From positions 5,664 to 45,459 of the forward strand of contig PLNP01000005.1 of assembly GCA_003142815.1 (NCBI GenBank): a DNA stretch of 39,796 nt, read 5' to 3'. Positions 2,211 to 31,434 of the stretch are shown here, in pieces; the first letter of the stretch is position 1, and each line of letters opens with the position of its first letter. Below the pieces are notes generated by a model. That model made no database searches. It was not told the DNA's origin and worked only from the letters and a program-made list of their open reading frames with translations. Source of the DNA: Rhodanobacteraceae bacterium. GTDB taxonomy: Bacteria; Pseudomonadota; Gammaproteobacteria; Xanthomonadales; Rhodanobacteraceae. Position numbers and translations under genes: made by a program.

Positions 2211-3173
2211 CTATGTGTGATGTGCGACTGGAATTGAAGCAAGCTCATCAAAACCGAATGCGATATTGAGGTTCTGCATCGCCTGCGTCGCGGCGCCCTT
2301 GAGCAGATTGTCGATCGTCGCGACGACGACGACGCGCTTGCCGCCCGGCGCGACTGCGAATCCACCGATATCGACATGATGCTTGCCGGCGATGACGCTG
2401 ACCCACGGCGCTTCGTCGACGATCCGGATCAACGGTTCACCGGCGTAGAACTCGCGATAGCGCGTCTTGATCGCATCCGCGCTCATCGCCTGCTGCAACC
2501 ACAGGTTCACGGTCATCGTGATGCCGCGAAAATGTGGCGCGACATGCGGCATGAACTCGACTGGCACGCCGAGTTGGCGCGTGACTTCGCGTTCGTGCAT
2601 GTGATCGACCAGCGCGTACGGCATCAAGTTGTCAAGAAGTTTCTCGGGATCGTTCTTGTCGGAAGGCGTCGTGCCGGCACCCGAATAGCCGGACACGCCG
2701 AAACACGCCGGCGGCGCGGCGAGTTCGTTCTTCAGCGGTGCGATCGCGAGTTGCATCGCGGTCGCATAGCAGCCAGGATTGCTGATGCGCGTCTGTCCGC
2801 CATAGCTCCTGCGCGTGAGTTCCGGCAGGCCGTAATACCAGGAATCATTGAATCGATAGTCGGCGGAAAGGTCGACGATGATCGTGTCCGGCTTCTCCAC
2901 ATCGATCGCCGCTACGACCCCGGCCGCGTTGCCGTTCGGCAGCGCGAGCACGACGGCGTCGGCACGCTTCTTCGCGATATCGTCGTCGGAAAGATTCTCG
3001 TAGCGCAGGTCACCGGCAAATTCGGCGACGTGGTCGCTCACGCGTTGCCCGTCCAGCTCGCGCGACGACACGAACGCAAACTCAAGCGCCGGATGCCGCG
3101 CAATGGACTTGATCAGTTCCGCTCCGGTATGGCCACGCGCGCCGACGATGCCGATTGTCTTCTTCTCGCTCAT
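2211..3173 (-). CDS. argC: N-acetyl-gamma-glutamyl-phosphate reductase
   Basis: The 320-residue enzyme uses NADPH to reduce N-acetylglutamyl-phosphate to N-acetylglutamate semialdehyde, the third step of arginine synthesis. The N-terminal nucleotide-binding loop is [13 protein letters not shown] (residues 6-18), and the catalytic cysteine sits in SNPGCYAT near residue 133. I chose the ATG at 3171-3173 ([11 protein letters not shown]) because it leaves the Rossmann strand at the proper distance; an upstream in-frame start would add nine residues reading into the previous gene. It begins four bases after the stop of the kinase/synthase gene, so translation is probably coupled. Confidence 0.96.
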
Positions 3174-3177
3174 GAGG

Positions 3178-4500
3178 TCAGTCCGACAAGGTGGGCACAC
3201 GTTCGCGACAATGCGCGACGCAGCGTGCGATGTCCGCGAAATCGCGGATGCCGTACCAGTACACCTTCCACTTCGGCTCCTTGTAGCAGCCGTCGGATTC
3301 GGCGTAGTAGAACGCGTTGATCAGGTTGTGGTGGCGCGAACGCCAGAACAGCTGCGGATTTTCCGCGCGCATGACCTGCCACGCGGCGCGGCCGAGACCC
3401 TCGCCCTGCGCGTCGTCGGCGACCGCGAACTTGTCGAGATAGGCGAAGCCTTCCTCGCGGGTCAGGATCAGTGCGGCGCGATAGTTTTCGCTGACATAGG
3501 CCTTGAACAGCCTGGTGCGCTCGAAGTAGTCCGATACCAGCCTGCGTCCGAATCCAGCCTCGATCAGCGCGCGCAGACGCTCGAGATCGAGCATGCTCCA
3601 GTCCGTATGCACGTCGACTCTTTCGCCGCGACGGACCAGCGTGCCCGAACCCTTGTGAGTGAACAGCTCCTTGGCGAGCTCGTCGGGTCTGGTGATCGAC
3701 ACCGACGAGGTCAGCGGCAGCTTGTCGAGCAGGTCCCTGATCTGCTCGATCTTCACGCGCATGCCGCCGTTGATCCATGGCTGCGCCATCAGCTCCTCGT
3801 ACTCCGTGCTGAGGTTGATCGAATCGATGATCCGGCCATCGCCATCGAGCAGGCCGCCGGTGCCGGTCAGGAAAACGATCTTGTACGGCTTCAGCATGCG
3901 CACGAGTTCGTTCGCGGCAAAGTCCGCATTGATGTTGAGGATCTGGCCCGACATCGTCTCGCCGAGCGAGGCGATCACCGGGATCGAACCGGCGCGCAGG
4001 CTGGCCTCGATCGGCGCGAGGTTCGCGCGCGCGACACGGCCAACCAGACCGAGCGCGTTGCGGTCGATGAACTCGGCCTCGAACACGCCGGACAGGATCG
4101 AAGTCGCGCGCGCGCCCGCCTGCTGCAGCGCCTCGACCAGATTGAGATTCTGCGCCTGGGCCACGCGGCGCACGATCGCCAGCGTTTCCGGTGAAGTCAC
4201 GCGCAGGCCGTCGACGGTCTGCTTCGCGATGCCGGCCGCGGAAAGCTCCTCGTCGAGCTGCGGGCCGGCGCCATGCACGACGATCGGGGTCAGGCCGACC
4301 TGCTGCAGGAACGCAAGCGACGAAGTCAGCGCATCGAGATCGTCGCGCAGCACCGCGCCGCCAACCTTGACCACCGCGAAGCGCTTGGCGTCGAGTTGCG
4401 AGAAGCGCTTCAGGTACTGGTCGATCTCCTTCGCGCTGGCCATGCTCGAGAGCAGGCGCACGATGGTCTGGCGGACCTGCAGATGGGTTTCGGCGTTCAT
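3178..4500 (-). CDS. argB: Bifunctional N-acetylglutamate kinase / N-acetylglutamate synthase
   Basis: This 440-residue fused protein catalyses the first two steps of arginine synthesis: acetylation of glutamate and phosphorylation of N-acetylglutamate. Residues about 25-285 form an amino-acid kinase domain (VVKVGGAVL near 43-51, then [21 protein letters not shown] later). Residues about 290-440 form the DUF619/vertebrate-like N-acetyltransferase domain ([21 protein letters not shown] in its middle). This architecture is known from Xanthomonas and a few relatives and is closer to animal NAGS than to E. coli ArgA. A start at 4500 makes an ATGA overlap with the argE stop; an upstream in-frame start (4569) would read inside argE and is less likely. 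Confidence 0.94.
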
Positions 4501-5756
4501 GCGTGTCCCTGCGCGATGATGCGATGGATGGTTTCCGCGTAGCGTTGCAATTGGTTGAGCGCGACCCATTCGTCGGCGCTGTGCGCCTGCGCGATGTCGC
4601 CCGGGCCGTAGACGAGCGTGGGATAGCCGGCCTGCGAGAACAGCGCGGCCTCGGTCCAGAAGTCGACCGCGTTGCCGATCGGCAGATCCAGTGCGCCGGC
4701 GAGATCGCGCGCGGCGAGCCGGCGCGCTTCGGCGTCGGCGATGTCACCGGCCGGCAGCGACGGGCCGCGGAAGGTCTCGGTGAATTCGACCGGTTCGACC
4801 TCGGCAAAGCTGCGGAACGTGCGCAGCAGTTCATCGCTGTCCATCGACGGCAACGGACGGAAACCGAAGCGCACCTCGGCCGCTGGCGCGATCACGTTCG
4901 CCTTGATGCCGCCCTCGACGCGGCCAATGTTGAAGCGCAGGCCGGTAAGTCCGCCGAAACCCGCGTGCGCCAGAGATTCGACATGGTCGAGCGCATGCGC
5001 GCCCCAGCGCATCGCCTGATGCAGTGCGCTGTCGGTCGTCTTCTGCTCACCCGATGTGTGACCCGCGCGACCCGCGAAACGCATCAGCACCGAGCTGATG
5101 CCGCGGTGCGCGAGCACGGCCTCGCCGCGCGTGGGCTCGGCGACGATGACGGCTTCAAAACCCCTCTGCCCTCGGCGACCGAAGGAAGTCCCCGTGGAAG
5201 AGATGGGTTGGGGTGAGGGGTCGGCGAAATCGCCACCGCTGCGCTCCGCCCGGACCCTCATCCGGCCCTTCGGGCCACCTTCTCTCCCACCGGGACTTCC
5301 TTCGGTCGCCGGAGGGAGAACGGAGATCCCTTCGAGGAACGCGGCGATGCAACGCGCGTCGTTCGCTTCCTCGTCGGTCGTGAACAGGAATGCGGCGGCA
5401 CCTTCGCTGCGTTGTGCGGCGGCAAGCAAGCCGGCGGCCGCACCCTTGATGTCGCAGGCGCCGAGGCCGATCGCGCGGTCTGCGCTCACGCCCAGTTCGA
5501 ACGGACTCGCCGTCCACGCCGGTGAATCGGGCACGGTGTCGAGATGCACGTTGAACAGCAATGTCGGCTGGCCGCGCACCGCGTACAGGCTGACCGCACC
5601 GGCACCGTGATCGGTGACCGTGCAATCGAAGCCAGCGAGCTGCGCGCGCAGGTAGTCGAAGATGCCTCCGGTGTCGATCGCACGCGGCGGATTGCGCGTG
5701 TCGAACGCGACCAGCGCGCGCAGGTGTTGCAAGGTATTGTCGAGTAGTGTCGTCAC
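4497..5756 (-). CDS. argE: N-acetyl-L-citrulline / acetylornithine deacetylase carrying an in-frame repeat insertion
   Basis: This M20-family zinc peptidase removes acetate from N-acetylcitrulline (the substrate when an acetylornithine carbamoyltransferase is present) or acetylornithine. Metal-site motifs are present: NVHLDTVPD near residue 69, GACDIKGA near 99, TDEEAND near 127, VAEPT near 205 and [13 protein letters not shown] towards the end. The protein is 419 residues, about 53 more than the 366 or so I recall for Xanthomonas homologues. The excess lies in one block, residues about 146-198, between AFLE and FEAVIVAEP, low in complexity (Gly, Ser, Pro, Arg) and encoded by a palindromic repeat. 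Flanking sequence is normal, so the enzyme may still work with a surface loop. It overlaps the next gene by four bases (ATGA). Confidence 0.92.
5169..5316. repeat. MITE-like element with 24-base terminal inverted repeats, inside argE
   Basis: The left arm (5169-5192) begins CCCTCGGCGACCGAAGGAAG and the right arm (5292-5316) ends CTTCGGTCGCCGGAGGG; the arms are reverse complements apart from about one inserted base. The interior contains GGGTGAGGGG and CCCTCATCCGG, again complementary to each other. The element is open in the argE frame. A half copy of the arm recurs at 27137-27170. It has the form of a non-autonomous palindromic element that carries no gene. Confidence 0.8.
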
Positions 5757-5785
5757 AGGGTCGCTCGCGTTCGCATCTTTCTGCT

Positions 5786-5832
5786 CGTCATCCCGGCCCT
5801 TCGACGAGCTCAGGACAGGCCGGAATGACGAT
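5786..5832. repeat. Short palindromic repeat, family A, argG-argE spacer
   Basis: Outer arms CGTCATCCCGGCC and GGCCGGAATGACG enclose a TTCGACGAGCTCAGGACA core. It is the second family A copy in the arginine operon and sits just after the argG stop, so it could fold in the mRNA between argG and argE. Confidence 0.75.
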
Positions 5833-5850
5833 CTTCTGGAACCGAATCTG

Positions 5851-7056
5851 TTATTTCGCGTTTCTGTTCACTTCCGCCCACAAGGTCGAGCTCATGCCAT
5901 ACAGGTGGATGAAGCCCTCGGCCTCGGCGACGCCCCAGTCGGCGGACTGCGCGTAAGTCGCGCCCTTCGCGTTGAGGATGTGCCTCGACTCGATCGCGAC
6001 CGCATTGACGACGCCGCCACTGGTTTCCAGCAATACGTCGCCATTGACGGTCGACTGGCTCGACGCCAGGAATGCCTCCAGATCGATCTTGAGCGGATCG
6101 TGGAAGAAACCTTCGTAGACCAACTCGACCCACTTGCGCGCGATCTCGGGCTTGAAGCGGTTCTGCTGCTTGGAGAGCACCGCCTCCTCCAGCGCACGAT
6201 GCGCGGTCAGCAATGCCGTCAGGCCCGGCGCCTCGAAGAGGATGCGGCCCTTGAGGCCGATCGTGGTGTCACCGGTGTAGAGGCCGCGACCGACGCCATA
6301 CTGCGCGAACAGGCCGTTGAGTTTCGCGAGCATCCTGTGACCGGCCATCTTCTCGCCATCGAGCGCAACCGCCTCGCCGTGCTCGAACGTGAGCTTCACG
6401 CGCAGCGCCTGCGACGGCCATTCGGCGCGCGGCCTGCACCAGCCCACCGCGCCCTCGCCCGGCACCTGCCAGCGGTCGATCTCACCGCCGGACAGGGTGA
6501 GACCCAACAGGTTTTCGTTGATCGTGTACGCCTTCTGTTTGGCGCGCACGCCGAAGCCGCGCTCTTCCAGGTATTTCTGCTCGTAGGCGCGTACTTCGGT
6601 GTGTTCCTTCTGGATCTCGCGGATCGGCGCGACGATCGTGTAGTCCCCCAGCGCCTTCACCGCGAGGTCGAAACGCACCTGGTCGTTGCCCATGCCGGTG
6701 CAGCCGTGCGCGATCGCCGTCGTACCGAGCTCGTCGGCGCGCTTCAGCGCGGCCTCGACGATCAGGTAACGGTCGGACACCAGCAGCGGGTACTGACCCT
6801 GATAACCCTCGCCCGCCCACACGAACGGCTTGACGAAACCTTCCCAGATCGCCGGGCCGCCATCGACGGTCACGTGCGAGGCCACGCCGAGTTCGTGCGC
6901 GCGCCGTTCGATGAATGCGCGCTCCTCGGCGTCGACGCCGCCGGTATCGGCGAACACGGTATGCACGGCATAACCGCGCTCCTTGAGATACGGCACGCAG
7001 AAACTGGTGTCGAGGCCGCCGGAGAAGGCCAGCACAATGTCTTTACTTGTTGTCAT
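5851..7056 (-). CDS. argG: Argininosuccinate synthase
   Basis: The 401-residue enzyme condenses citrulline and aspartate with ATP to make argininosuccinate. The N-terminus carries the PP-loop ATP-binding motif [10 protein letters not shown] (about residues 9-18), and the substrate-binding region [13 protein letters not shown] follows near residue 115. I chose the ATG at 7054-7056: it places the PP-loop correctly and overlaps the argF stop as ATGA. The open frame continues upstream of it only as a shadow of argF. It is the second gene of the operon, so its expression should follow any attenuation upstream of argF. Confidence 0.96.
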
Positions 7057-8123
7057 CTTGAGTGCCTTCTTTGTGGTGCTTTGTTCCCATCTCGGTTTAC
7101 GATCAGCGCGGCCATGATCGCCTTCTGCACATGCAGCCGGTTCTCGGCCTCGTCGATCGCGATGCACGCGGTTGAATCCATGACCGCATCGGTCGCCTTG
7201 ACGTTGCGGCGCAGCGGTAGGCAATGGCTGAACACGCCGTGGTCGGTCAGCGCCATCTTCGCTTCGTCGACGATGAAGTGCTGGTGCGCATCGCGGATCG
7301 GCTTTTCCTCGGCCCAGCGACCGAAGTACGGCAGCGCGCCCCAGCTTTTCGCGTAGATGACATGCGCGCCGCGATACGCGCTTTGCGGATCGTGGCTGAT
7401 CGTGAGCGAGCCGCCGTTCTCGGCGACGTTCTGGCGTGCGAAATCCATATAGCGCTGATCGAGCACATACTCCGGCGTCGGGCACAGCAGGGTGACGTCC
7501 ATGCCGTAGCGCGTCGCGATCTGCAGCGCGGAGTTCGCGACCGCGGTGTTGAGCGGCCGCGGATGGTAGGTCCAGGTCAGTACATATTTCCTGCCGCGCA
7601 GAGCCTGCCCCGGACTTGATCCGCGGTCCTTGCCGAAGCGCTCCTGCAGCGCCTGGATATGCGCGAGCTCCTGGCACGGATGGGTGATCGTCTCCATGTT
7701 GATCACCGGCACCGTCGCGTGTTTCGCGAACGCGCGGATCACGCGGTCCTCGCGGTCGACCGCCCAGTCCTGGAATTTCGGGAATGCGCGCACGCCGATC
7801 AGGTCCACATAGCGCGACAGTACGCGCGCGACCTCGGCGACGTGCTCCTCGGCCTCGCCGTCCATGACGGAGCCGACCTCGAACTCGATCGGCCACGCGT
7901 CTTTGCCGGGCGCGAGCACGATCGCATGGCCGCCGAGCTGGAATGCACCGAGTTCGAAGCTCGTGCGCGTGCGCATCGACGGATTGAAGAACAGCAGAGC
8001 GATCGACTTGCCTTCGAGCTGATGGCCAGTCTTCGAACGCTTGAACAGCGCGGCCTGGTCGAGCAACGCATCGAGTTCAGGCCGCGTCCAGTCCTGCGTG
8101 CTGAGAAAGTGGCGGAGCGCCAT
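7053..8123 (-). CDS. argF: N-acetyl-L-ornithine carbamoyltransferase
   Basis: The 356-residue protein transfers a carbamoyl group to N-acetylornithine, giving N-acetylcitrulline. Motifs are those of the Xanthomonas-type enzyme rather than ordinary OTCase: [21 protein letters not shown] near residue 48, [28 protein letters not shown], and the C-terminal [17 protein letters not shown]. The ATG at 8121-8123 gives [12 protein letters not shown], matching the family start. Relative to the roughly 339-residue enzyme I remember, there are about seven extra residues before [10 protein letters not shown] (see 7603-7629) and an unusual tail of about 12 residues that overlaps the argG start. It is the first structural gene of the operon. 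Confidence 0.95.
7603..7629. repeat. Repeat-derived insertion inside argF
   Basis: The plus-strand stretch CCTGCCCCGGACTTGATCCG resembles the widespread intergenic palindrome that contains GATCAAGTCCGGGGCAGG. In argF it encodes roughly DRGSSPGQA, just where the protein is about seven residues longer than relatives. It is probably a trimmed palindromic repeat kept in frame. Confidence 0.55.
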
Positions 8124-8159
8124 GGCAAATTCCAAATGGTTTGAAGAAACGTGGGCCCG

Positions 8160-8192
8160 AAAGCAGAAAACCCGGCGCAGAGGCCGGGTCTT
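8160..8192 (-). terminator. Intrinsic terminator / attenuator hairpin before argF
   Basis: On the minus strand the arm ACCCGGC (8189-8183), a 6-base loop and the arm GCCGGGT (8176-8170) form a strong stem that extends by three more pairs into the following TTTTCTGCTT tract. It lies about 40 bases before the argF start and downstream of the arginine promoter region, so it would stop operon transcription unless prevented. A third sequence, GCCGGGT at 8232-8226, is identical to the 3' arm and can pair with the 5' arm instead. Confidence 0.65.
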
Positions 8193-8223
8193 GTCGAAGC
8201 TGAAGAAGAAAACGTGCGACGGC

Positions 8224-8328
8224 CTACCCGGCAGGAATGCAAAGTTCCGGTCGGCGCGCGCGCGAAGTCATCCCCGCGGCCATGCGGGCGCTGGTGACGA
8301 TCTGCGGCTGGTTTGCGACTCGGCTCAT
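8224..8328 (-). CDS. Putative arginine leader peptide (34 residues)
   Basis: A short frame from ATG 8326-8328 to TAG 8224-8226 encodes 34 residues, five of them Arg, with a near-continuous group TSRARRPE at residues 21-28. It starts about 20-25 bases downstream of a promoter-like pair and ends about 32 bases before the terminator hairpin, the classical layout of a leader peptide. The Arg codons (8251-8256 and 8260-8262) sit directly before CCGG (8250-8247), which can pair with CCGG of segment 2 (8231-8228). A ribosome stalled there would free segment 2 to form the antiterminator. No strong Shine-Dalgarno sequence is visible. The structural reading is my inference. Confidence 0.45.
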   Translation of the reverse strand: MSRVANQPQIVTSARMAAGMTSRARRPELCIPAG

Positions 8329-8354
8329 CGGGTTCGGCTCAAGCGATTGGGCAG

Positions 8355-8383
8355 AAGTTACCTGCAAACGGTGCACCGCGCAA
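8355..8383 (-). promoter_or_regulatory. Candidate promoter of the arginine operon
   Basis: On the minus strand, TTGCGC (8383-8378) and TAACTT (8360-8355) are separated by 17 bases, a fair sigma-70 arrangement. Transcription would begin about 8348, just ahead of the putative leader peptide. The -10 match is only moderate. Confidence 0.35.
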
Positions 8384-8410
8384 CGATCGTGATTGCAAGA
8401 GTGGGTGCAC

Positions 8411-8441
8411 CACACAAAACGACCGGGTAGTGCCCGGTCGT
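8411..8441 (-). terminator. Intrinsic terminator after the glycine-zipper gene
   Basis: Arms CGACCGGG (8420-8427) and CCCGGTCG (8433-8440) form an 8-bp stem with a 5-base loop; on the minus strand it is followed by TTTTGTGTG. It lies 24 bases past the glycine-zipper gene's stop and isolates it from the arginine operon. Confidence 0.65.
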
Positions 8442-8464
8442 CGATGAATCCTGATATCAACGTG

Positions 8465-31182: not shown

Positions 31183-31274
31183 GGAGAGGTGTCCGAGTGG
31201 TTGAAGGAGCACGCCTGGAAAGTGTGTAAACGGGTTAAACCGTTTCGCGGGTTCGAATCCCGCTCTCTCCGCCA
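31183..31274 (+). tRNA. tRNA-Ser (anticodon GGA)
   Basis: A complete 92-base class II tRNA including encoded CCA (31272-31274). The acceptor GGAGAGG (31183-31189) pairs with TCTCTCC (31264-31270, one G-T). The anticodon stem CACGC/GTGTG encloses loop CTGGAAA, giving anticodon GGA, which reads UCC and UCU. A long variable arm (AACGGGTTAAACCGTTT region) marks it as serine, and the T-arm GCGGGTTCGAATCCCGC is perfect. Two broken copies lie upstream. Confidence 0.95.
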
Positions 31275-31322
31275 GTTTTGCAACAGCATCACGAGCGAGC
31301 GCATCCCGCTCGTACAAGTTTA

Positions 31323-31434
31323 TGGCGGCTCCGTCGGTCCTCCCGCGACGATAGCTCGCAAACTCCGCCAGGTCCGGAAGGAAGCAACGGTAGCGAGTGA
31401 TTCGGGTGCCGGGATGTGGCTGGCGGAGCTGCCA
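31323..31434 (+). ncRNA. ffs: Signal recognition particle RNA (4.5S RNA)
   Basis: The conserved SRP apical region CCAGGTCCGGAAGGAAGCA lies at about 31368-31386 and is followed by GTGCCGGGATGTGGCTGG. The ends TGGCGGCTCCG (31323) and CGGAGCTGCCA (31434) pair to close the long hairpin. Overall length, about 112 bases, matches E. coli 4.5S RNA. The RNA binds Ffh and FtsY to target membrane proteins. It lies about 50 bases after the tRNA-Ser. Confidence 0.93.

Follow-up and report, generated by a model that had tools for sequence, protein, structure and literature searches.

The window, a stretch of 39,796 nucleotides (nt) from a Rhodanobacteraceae bacterium of the order Xanthomonadales (GenBank assembly GCA_003142815.1, contig PLNP01000005.1, positions 5,664 to 45,459), carries on its minus strand a cluster of arginine biosynthesis genes headed by argF', encoding N-acetylornithine carbamoyltransferase. 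The identity of this gene is given by the NCBIfam equivalog NF003384 (E 1.9e-180) and by its best solved-structure matches in the PDB, 3kzc and others bearing the name N-acetylornithine carbamoyltransferase; its nearest named relatives are Rhodanobacteraceae, Dokdonella among them. The region upstream of argF' (8383-8160, minus strand) is in all likelihood a ribosome-mediated transcription attenuator of the trp/his type, which would sense arginine and control the arginine operon. An earlier note, made from the sequence of the window alone, had proposed such a device. The elements that it described were found in the sequence as claimed (Table 1), and its interpretation gains support from relatives, in which the leader is conserved and the two alternative helices are kept and covary. 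In the window the Arg group reads CGC GCG CGC CGA (8262-8251, minus strand), and segment 2 (GCCGGGT, 8232-8226) overlaps the leader stop codon TAG (8226-8224).

Table 1. Features of the arginine leader and its surroundings in the window
Feature	Position	Strand	Basis
Promoter-like pair: -35 TTGCGC (8383-8378), 17 nt, -10 TAACTT (8360-8355)	8355..8383	-	read from sequence; pattern conserved in relatives
Leader peptide gene, 34 codons, MSRVANQPQIVTSARMAAGMTSRARRPELCIPAG*, five Arg	8224..8328	-	frame and core conservation
Near-invariant core MTSRARRP, proposed stall site	8248..8271	-	conservation, codon counts
Core Arg codons, then Pro CCG	8262-8260, 8256-8254, 8253-8251 (CGA); Pro 8250-8248	-	sequence
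Segment 1, CCGG, proposed protector of segment 2	8247..8250	-	weak
Segment 2, GCCGGGT, 5' half of putative antiterminator	8226..8232	-	complement of terminator 5' arm
Segment 3, ACCCGGC, antiterminator 3' half or terminator 5' arm	8183..8189	-	pairing in alignment
Segment 4, GCCGGGT, terminator 3' arm, then T-rich tract to ~8160	8170..8176	-	pairing, fold z
argF', N-acetylornithine carbamoyltransferase, first gene behind the attenuator, ATG at 8123	7053..8123	-	NCBIfam, PDB relatives
argG (argininosuccinate synthase domains), argE-like M20 peptidase, NAGK-NAGS fusion (argAB), argC-like semialdehyde dehydrogenase	2211..7053	-	Pfam, NCBIfam
Terminator-like hairpin with T tail, behind the glycine-zipper gene 9016-8465	8416..8441	-	by eye

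The upstream regions compared came from 111 loci, namely 80 named ones, 30 further ones including that of the window, and L002. At the E limit used argF' was recovered in 110 of the 111, and L002, a weak match from the window's own genome, was dropped. Removal of identical upstream regions left 98 distinct ones; the alignment has 97 rows, 95 of them distinct, and helix counts were made over its 665 cells. Since the loci were chosen by likeness of argF', close families are over-represented. The sample also holds some unusual loci: extra DNA of about 300 nt (L010) and about 200 nt (L055) lies between the terminator and argF', with the attenuator kept; a record titled Rhizobium sp., a metagenome-assembled genome (L066), carries a Lysobacterales-type argF' and the attenuator and is probably misnamed or mixed.

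The leader core is present in 97 of the 98 upstream regions, as are the frame and its Arg cluster, and in the sole miss (L072) the sequence before the gene is just 87 nt long. Six residues of the core, namely Met, Thr, Ser, Ala and the first and third Arg, occur in 97 of 97 rows, the second Arg and Pro in 96 each; three of four consecutive codons are thus Arg in 96 rows, L004 having His at the second position. The third core Arg is encoded by CGA in 95 of 97 leaders, a codon that is rare elsewhere: the argF' genes at these loci use it for 29 of their 2003 Arg residues, and nine genes of the window for 11 of 245. Over the 11 codons of the core, the nonsynonymous (pN) and synonymous (pS) differences are 0.025 and 0.315 (pN/pS 0.08), and within MTSRARRP they are 0.004 and 0.253 (pN/pS 0.01). 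The ratio is 1.15 in the part before the core, 0.86 in the five codons directly upstream of it and 0.97 in the linker behind it, and the core read in the two shifted frames gives 1.55 and 2.63. As the low ratio is specific to the frame, the leader is very probably translated, and selection keeps its amino acids as well as its bases. The peptide matched no Pfam or NCBIfam model. Spacing is likewise constant, the first core Arg and the stop being 12 codons apart in 87 of 97 rows and segment 2 starting 21 nt after the first base of CGA in 85 of 97.

The promoter-like pair named in the earlier note appears weak by consensus, although its pattern is conserved: TTGC N2, a spacer of 16-18 nt and xAxxxT precede the leader ATG in 93 of 97 rows (spacer 17 in 80, 18 in 13), compared with a mean of 1.9 and a maximum of 7 in 50 base shuffles. 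The start of the L065 locus, one of the four misses, resembles a sequencing-adapter or poly-C contig-end artefact. The distance from the -10 element to the ATG is bimodal, 6-10 nt in 45 rows and 24-39 nt in 48, the window having 26 nt. The short group takes in 29 of the 32 rows named Lysobacteraceae and 3 of the 30 named Rhodanobacteraceae, and in this group, that is, in most Lysobacteraceae rows, the leader gene should be nearly leaderless. A further promoter downstream of 8160 is possible.

The claimed alternative pairing of the terminator 5' arm with the sequence at the leader stop holds across the alignment. The two codons preceding the stop read GCYGGG in 87 of 97 rows, and in 81 rows segment 2, GCYGGGT, is perfectly complementary to the terminator 5' arm, as GCCGGGT/ACCCGGC in 53 of them and as GCTGGGT/ACCCAGC in 28. 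The terminator, placed by the earlier note at 8192-8160, has its stem in 97 of 97 rows and a T-rich tail visible in the alignment. The antiterminator helix (2:3) is paired in 98.8% of cells and the terminator helix (3:4) in 100%, with 2 pairs of the latter changed on both sides; of 95 rows, 63 have C-G and 31 have U-A at a variable pair shared by both helices. In a control with the partner slid along the alignment, pairing falls to 24-57%. The check on relatives that the earlier note had suggested thus shows segments 2, 3 and 4 changing together, though in few independent events.

Folding of the window's leader by itself gave a different picture from folding across the rows. A consensus scan of the single sequence matched neither the promoter nor the terminator, and the minimum free energy of 8350-8112 is no better than that of shuffles (z +2.0; an equal or lower value in 198 of 200 shuffles). 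Across the 97 rows, both the antiterminator (mean z -2.2; 92 of 97 below -1) and the terminator (mean z -5.6; 97 of 97 below -1) beat their shuffles. The attenuator would accordingly not stand out from the window sequence alone, and it is the comparison that sets it apart from chance. An accidental meeting of an Arg-rich frame with a plain terminator in GC-rich DNA, with which the poor single-sequence fold and the empty scans would agree, has next to no probability, being refuted by the conservation of the core (97 of 98) and of the promoter pattern (93 of 97).

A covariance model built from the alignment was run against genomes of the order and the class, E<=0.01 being its noise level. At this limit 345 of 398 genomes of the order have a match, not all of which are counted as true cases, as have 51 of the 369 genomes from the class, five of them belonging to the order itself. 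The best class match outside the order (L128, 6.8e-5) was rejected as a chance match composed of a coding-gene end and a terminator. Among 27 genomes of seven other families (f3, f4, f5 and f7-f10), selected by hand from among the higher-scoring ones, the match lies directly before argF' in 26. MTSRARR is kept in all 11 loci of f3 and f4. In the argF' loci of f5 and f7-f10 the core is absent, and clusters of Arg stand in the same place (RRLRRP, HLRRP, RRARRTRRP, RRARRR, PRRRR and RRRRR); the Arg codons shared by these distant families would therefore be the constant part of the attenuator. In 13 of the 26 distant loci an exact copy of the terminator 3' arm lies 20-70 nt upstream of segment 3, compared with an expectation of 0.034 per locus. 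Searched for as an exact pattern, the core is present in a single copy in each of 127 genomes out of 199 from the order, and a reversed control pattern in 1 genome. No second leader was found before another arg gene, and the window's genome has one site, a diverged copy not having been sought. One leader of the order, lacking annotation in its feature table, precedes argF' and argG on a 508-kb 'plasmid' of Xanthomonas sacchari R1 (L184, NZ_CP010410.1 75800-79198).

Repression by the ArgR protein is a well-known form of arginine feedback on arg genes. None of 117 genomes of the family and none of 30 from other families gave a match to the arginine repressor (PF02863), the same search being positive in 8 of 14 control genomes, including Escherichia coli and Bacillus subtilis. 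Since no ArgR was found in these 147 genomes, attenuation may stand in for it.

The same RNA has been described in Xanthomonas under another heading. Rfam model RF02242 (Xoo5) has a match in the window at 8323-8209, whose 43 bits (E 9.3e-8) fall short of the model's cut-off of 50 bits. When the model was run on seven loci, five of them, all from Lysobacteraceae (L039, L054, L022, L047 and L082), scored 86-147 bits, the match starting 2 nt before the leader ATG; the cut-off was not reached in L015 and L001. The locus and the RNA are the same as those of the leader, which the model covers in the five loci; unlike the attenuator, Xoo5 is described as a non-coding small RNA (sRNA), and its model stops short of the terminator. 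Filed as an sRNA, Xoo5 holds the conserved small reading frame, and in L039 the model (2237-2360) ends just before the terminator.

The available part of the original report (PMC3039613) gives sRNA-Xoo5 of X. oryzae a 5' end by rapid amplification of cDNA ends (5' RACE), a length of 124 nt and a position between PXO_00354 and PXO_00353, the latter listed in its protein table as N-acetylornithine carbamoyltransferase; Northern blots in PSA medium showed bands of about 130 and 100 nt. That part of the text is without the words argF, leader and terminator, and its lone 'attenuation' refers to virulence; for clones that overlap 5' untranslated regions it mentions a possible attenuation of transcription, and it offers nothing further on attenuation. 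In the literature searched, here and below the open part of PubMed Central, Xoo5 is nowhere called an attenuator. Judging by the equal length of 124, position 1 of the Xoo5 model would be the RACE 5' end. Xoo5 is accordingly an actual transcript, and its start falls where the promoter pattern would place it. A start of transcription downstream of 8160, on which the earlier note would have given up its proposal, was not borne out, as the mapped end of the homologous RNA (PMC3039613, as far as available) lies two bases before the leader ATG if model position 1 is that end. The conserved promoter pattern and this mapped end together lead us to expect a transcript starting upstream of 8160 in the window organism as well.

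That the locus serves mainly to make a trans-acting small RNA, or a trans-acting peptide, with the terminator as nothing but its own end, would agree with the description and curation of Xoo5, with the short species on the Northern blots (in the part of PMC3039613 available) and with trans-acting leader products elsewhere, such as peTrpL of Sinorhizobium (PMC7298713, available in part). It is nonetheless improbable, because the core pattern is single-copy in each genome that has it, the element stands directly before argF' in 26 of the 27 distant genomes taken, and a free sRNA would have no need of a second copy of the terminator arm over the stop codon. Still less probable is a riboswitch or a leader bound by a protein or RNA (ArgR-like or T-box) in place of a translated one. 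A conserved RNA, exclusive hairpins and a biosynthetic gene downstream would be expected of such an element too, but conservation here tracks the reading frame, no T-box or riboswitch model of Rfam matches the window at its gathering score, a search of 8050-8450 up to E 1 gives Xoo5 alone, and the 147 genomes yielded no ArgR to bind it.

Anatomy, selection on the leader at the level of translation, exclusive helices, fixed spacing, the promoter pattern and the absence of ArgR emerge from the comparison of genomes; from them we infer ribosome stalling, sensing of charged tRNA and a response to arginine, as follows. RNA polymerase would start at about 8348, as placed from the -10 element, with a ribosome trailing behind as it translates the 34 codons of the leader. 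A shortage of charged Arg-tRNA would make this ribosome halt at 8262-8251, above all at the conserved rare CGA before Pro, with its front edge about 8 nt short of segment 2, so that 2:3 could pair once segment 3 is made, the terminator would not form and the operon would be read. When arginine is plentiful, the ribosome would reach the stop codon and cover segment 2, leaving 3:4 to form the terminator and transcription to stop some 40 nt short of argF'. A ribosome is taken to extend 12 nt past the first base of the codon in its A site; with this assumed footprint, segment 2 would be free when the ribosome stands on the Arg codons and covered when it stands at the stop codon. For RNA ended at segment 3, the mean probability of 2:3 is 0.56 without a ribosome and 0.94 with one on the third Arg codon, exceeding 0.5 in 54 and 94 of 97 rows, respectively. 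In these models the dependence on the ribosome lends weak, indirect support to segment 1 as a protector of segment 2.

Several observations weigh against this interpretation. No measured response to arginine was found in the literature searched. In f3 and f4 an exact copy of segment 2 is present in 1 of 11 loci and missing in 10 (L154, L156-L163 and L165, all with MTSRARR), and the antiterminator there is weaker, shifted or absent. The covariation amounts to few events: a quick argF' tree calls for a minimum of 3 changes in segment 2 and of 2 in segment 3, too few to give a tree-based sign test any power. The 1:2 pairing that the earlier note had drawn between CCGG and segment 2 is the least secure of its helices (mean z -0.47; 31 of 97 and 19 of 97 rows below -1 in two versions). 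RNA ended at the terminator is predicted to be 157-161 nt long in the five Lysobacteraceae, the published sizes of Xoo5 are shorter, and its cloned 3' end precedes the terminator in the available part of the report; the stretch from the 5' end through segment 2 measures 102 nt, and at a guess the bands may reflect trimming from the 3' end. In full-length equilibrium folds the terminator wins in 95 of 97 rows when no ribosome is present, in 85 when one occupies the third Arg codon and in 74 when one occupies the first (and in 97 with one at the stop codon, where segment 2 is removed by construction). Since equilibrium favours the terminator, the switch must depend on 2:3 forming before segment 4 is made. 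Known attenuators are taught as relying on the order of synthesis.

Finally, the peptide-level conservation of the core exceeds what Arg codons alone would demand. This raises the alternative that nascent MTSRARRP, and not charged Arg-tRNA, is the sensor, with free arginine or a related metabolite acting on the chain within the ribosome and so holding the ribosome, for example at the stop codon over segment 2, and thereby favouring the terminator. The amino acids of the core are fixed as its codons vary synonymously, Arg is no more fixed than the Met, Thr, Ser, Ala and Pro around it, the stretch between the first core Arg and the stop is of constant length, and f3 and f4 keep the core where they mostly lack the exact segment 2. 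The same constant spacing is equally expected of masking by a ribosome, the families f5 and f7-f10 show Arg clusters without the rest of the core, and CGA is fixed at the codon level, needlessly for a peptide sensor; because of this fixed codon decoding is favoured as the sensor, and an arrest peptide in its stead is unlikely. A combination of the two is somewhat less doubtful, and we put it forward tentatively: an arginine attenuator across the order with a working leader peptide, in which MTSRARRP, through Arg-CGA before Pro, would slow or arrest the ribosome and may sense arginine directly or act in trans after release. Room for a nascent-chain role is left because the peptide is fixed in the 97 rows and in f3 and f4 in a manner that codon reading does not explain.

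Leader-peptide attenuators are known for the trp, his, leu, ilv, thr and phe operons. The arginine leader shares with them a short translated leader with codons for the product of the pathway and a stop near segment 2, mutually exclusive 2:3 and 3:4 helices, and an intrinsic terminator before the first gene. It differs in its amino acid, in a core conserved as protein, in the weak 1:2 pairing and in being nearly leaderless in most Lysobacteraceae rows; selection on the peptide itself and the nearly leaderless start go beyond the textbook attenuator.

The nearest parallel for arginine itself is orf34 of Salmonella speF, on which ribosomes pause at two consecutive Arg codons when arginine is low, changing the fold of the RNA (PMC6386406, of which part was available). 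That system is also Gram-negative and also couples pausing on the Arg codons of a short upstream frame to RNA folding, but in what is available of the source it concerns ornithine decarboxylase, two Arg codons, Rho, RNase G and the start region of speF; since orf34 works through Rho and RNase G on ornithine decarboxylase, it is not an intrinsic attenuator of arginine synthesis. The gene behind the leader in the window encodes N-acetylornithine carbamoyltransferase and not ornithine decarboxylase. The statement in the earlier note that arginine attenuation was unheard of in Gram-negative bacteria therefore stands for arginine synthesis, for which none was found in the literature searched, and needs qualifying for the sensing of arginine, which speF orf34 performs. 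Arginine T-boxes, like ArgR, provide arginine feedback on arg genes, but they and ArgR use a tRNA-binding RNA or a DNA-binding protein, neither of which was found here; in the part available, a survey of Actinobacteria reports no RNA structures before arginine operons and names arginine T-boxes elsewhere (PMC1262725). The literature searched held no arginine attenuator before argF in Gram-negative bacteria. A term search of the available parts of PMC7694677 and PMC3744752 gave no mention, that of PMC10219788 held none bearing on an arginine attenuator, and in that of a 2010 attenuator survey (PMC2965389) the word 'arginine' is absent and the single mention of Xanthomonas concerns rpsL.

Downstream of the attenuator, the genes from argF' through the argC-like gene would be co-transcribed, judging by their order and strand. 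One of them (4569-3178, minus strand) joins an acetylglutamate kinase to an N-acetylglutamate synthase domain. On the upstream side, the hairpin 8441-8416 (minus strand), which was not among the consensus-scan matches, separates the glycine-zipper unit from the arg leader. Elsewhere in the window, 31183-31428 (plus strand) holds a tRNA gene adjoining a bacterial small SRP (signal recognition particle) RNA.

If the reading as an arginine attenuator is true, arginine would join the amino acids whose own synthesis is under leader-peptide attenuation in Gram-negative bacteria, and the control of arginine synthesis would be explained in an order where no ArgR was found. Xoo5, curated as a non-coding sRNA, would then be the transcribed leader of an arg operon with a small protein-coding gene inside it. 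The selected core raises the question of whether one leader uses both codon reading and nascent-chain arrest.
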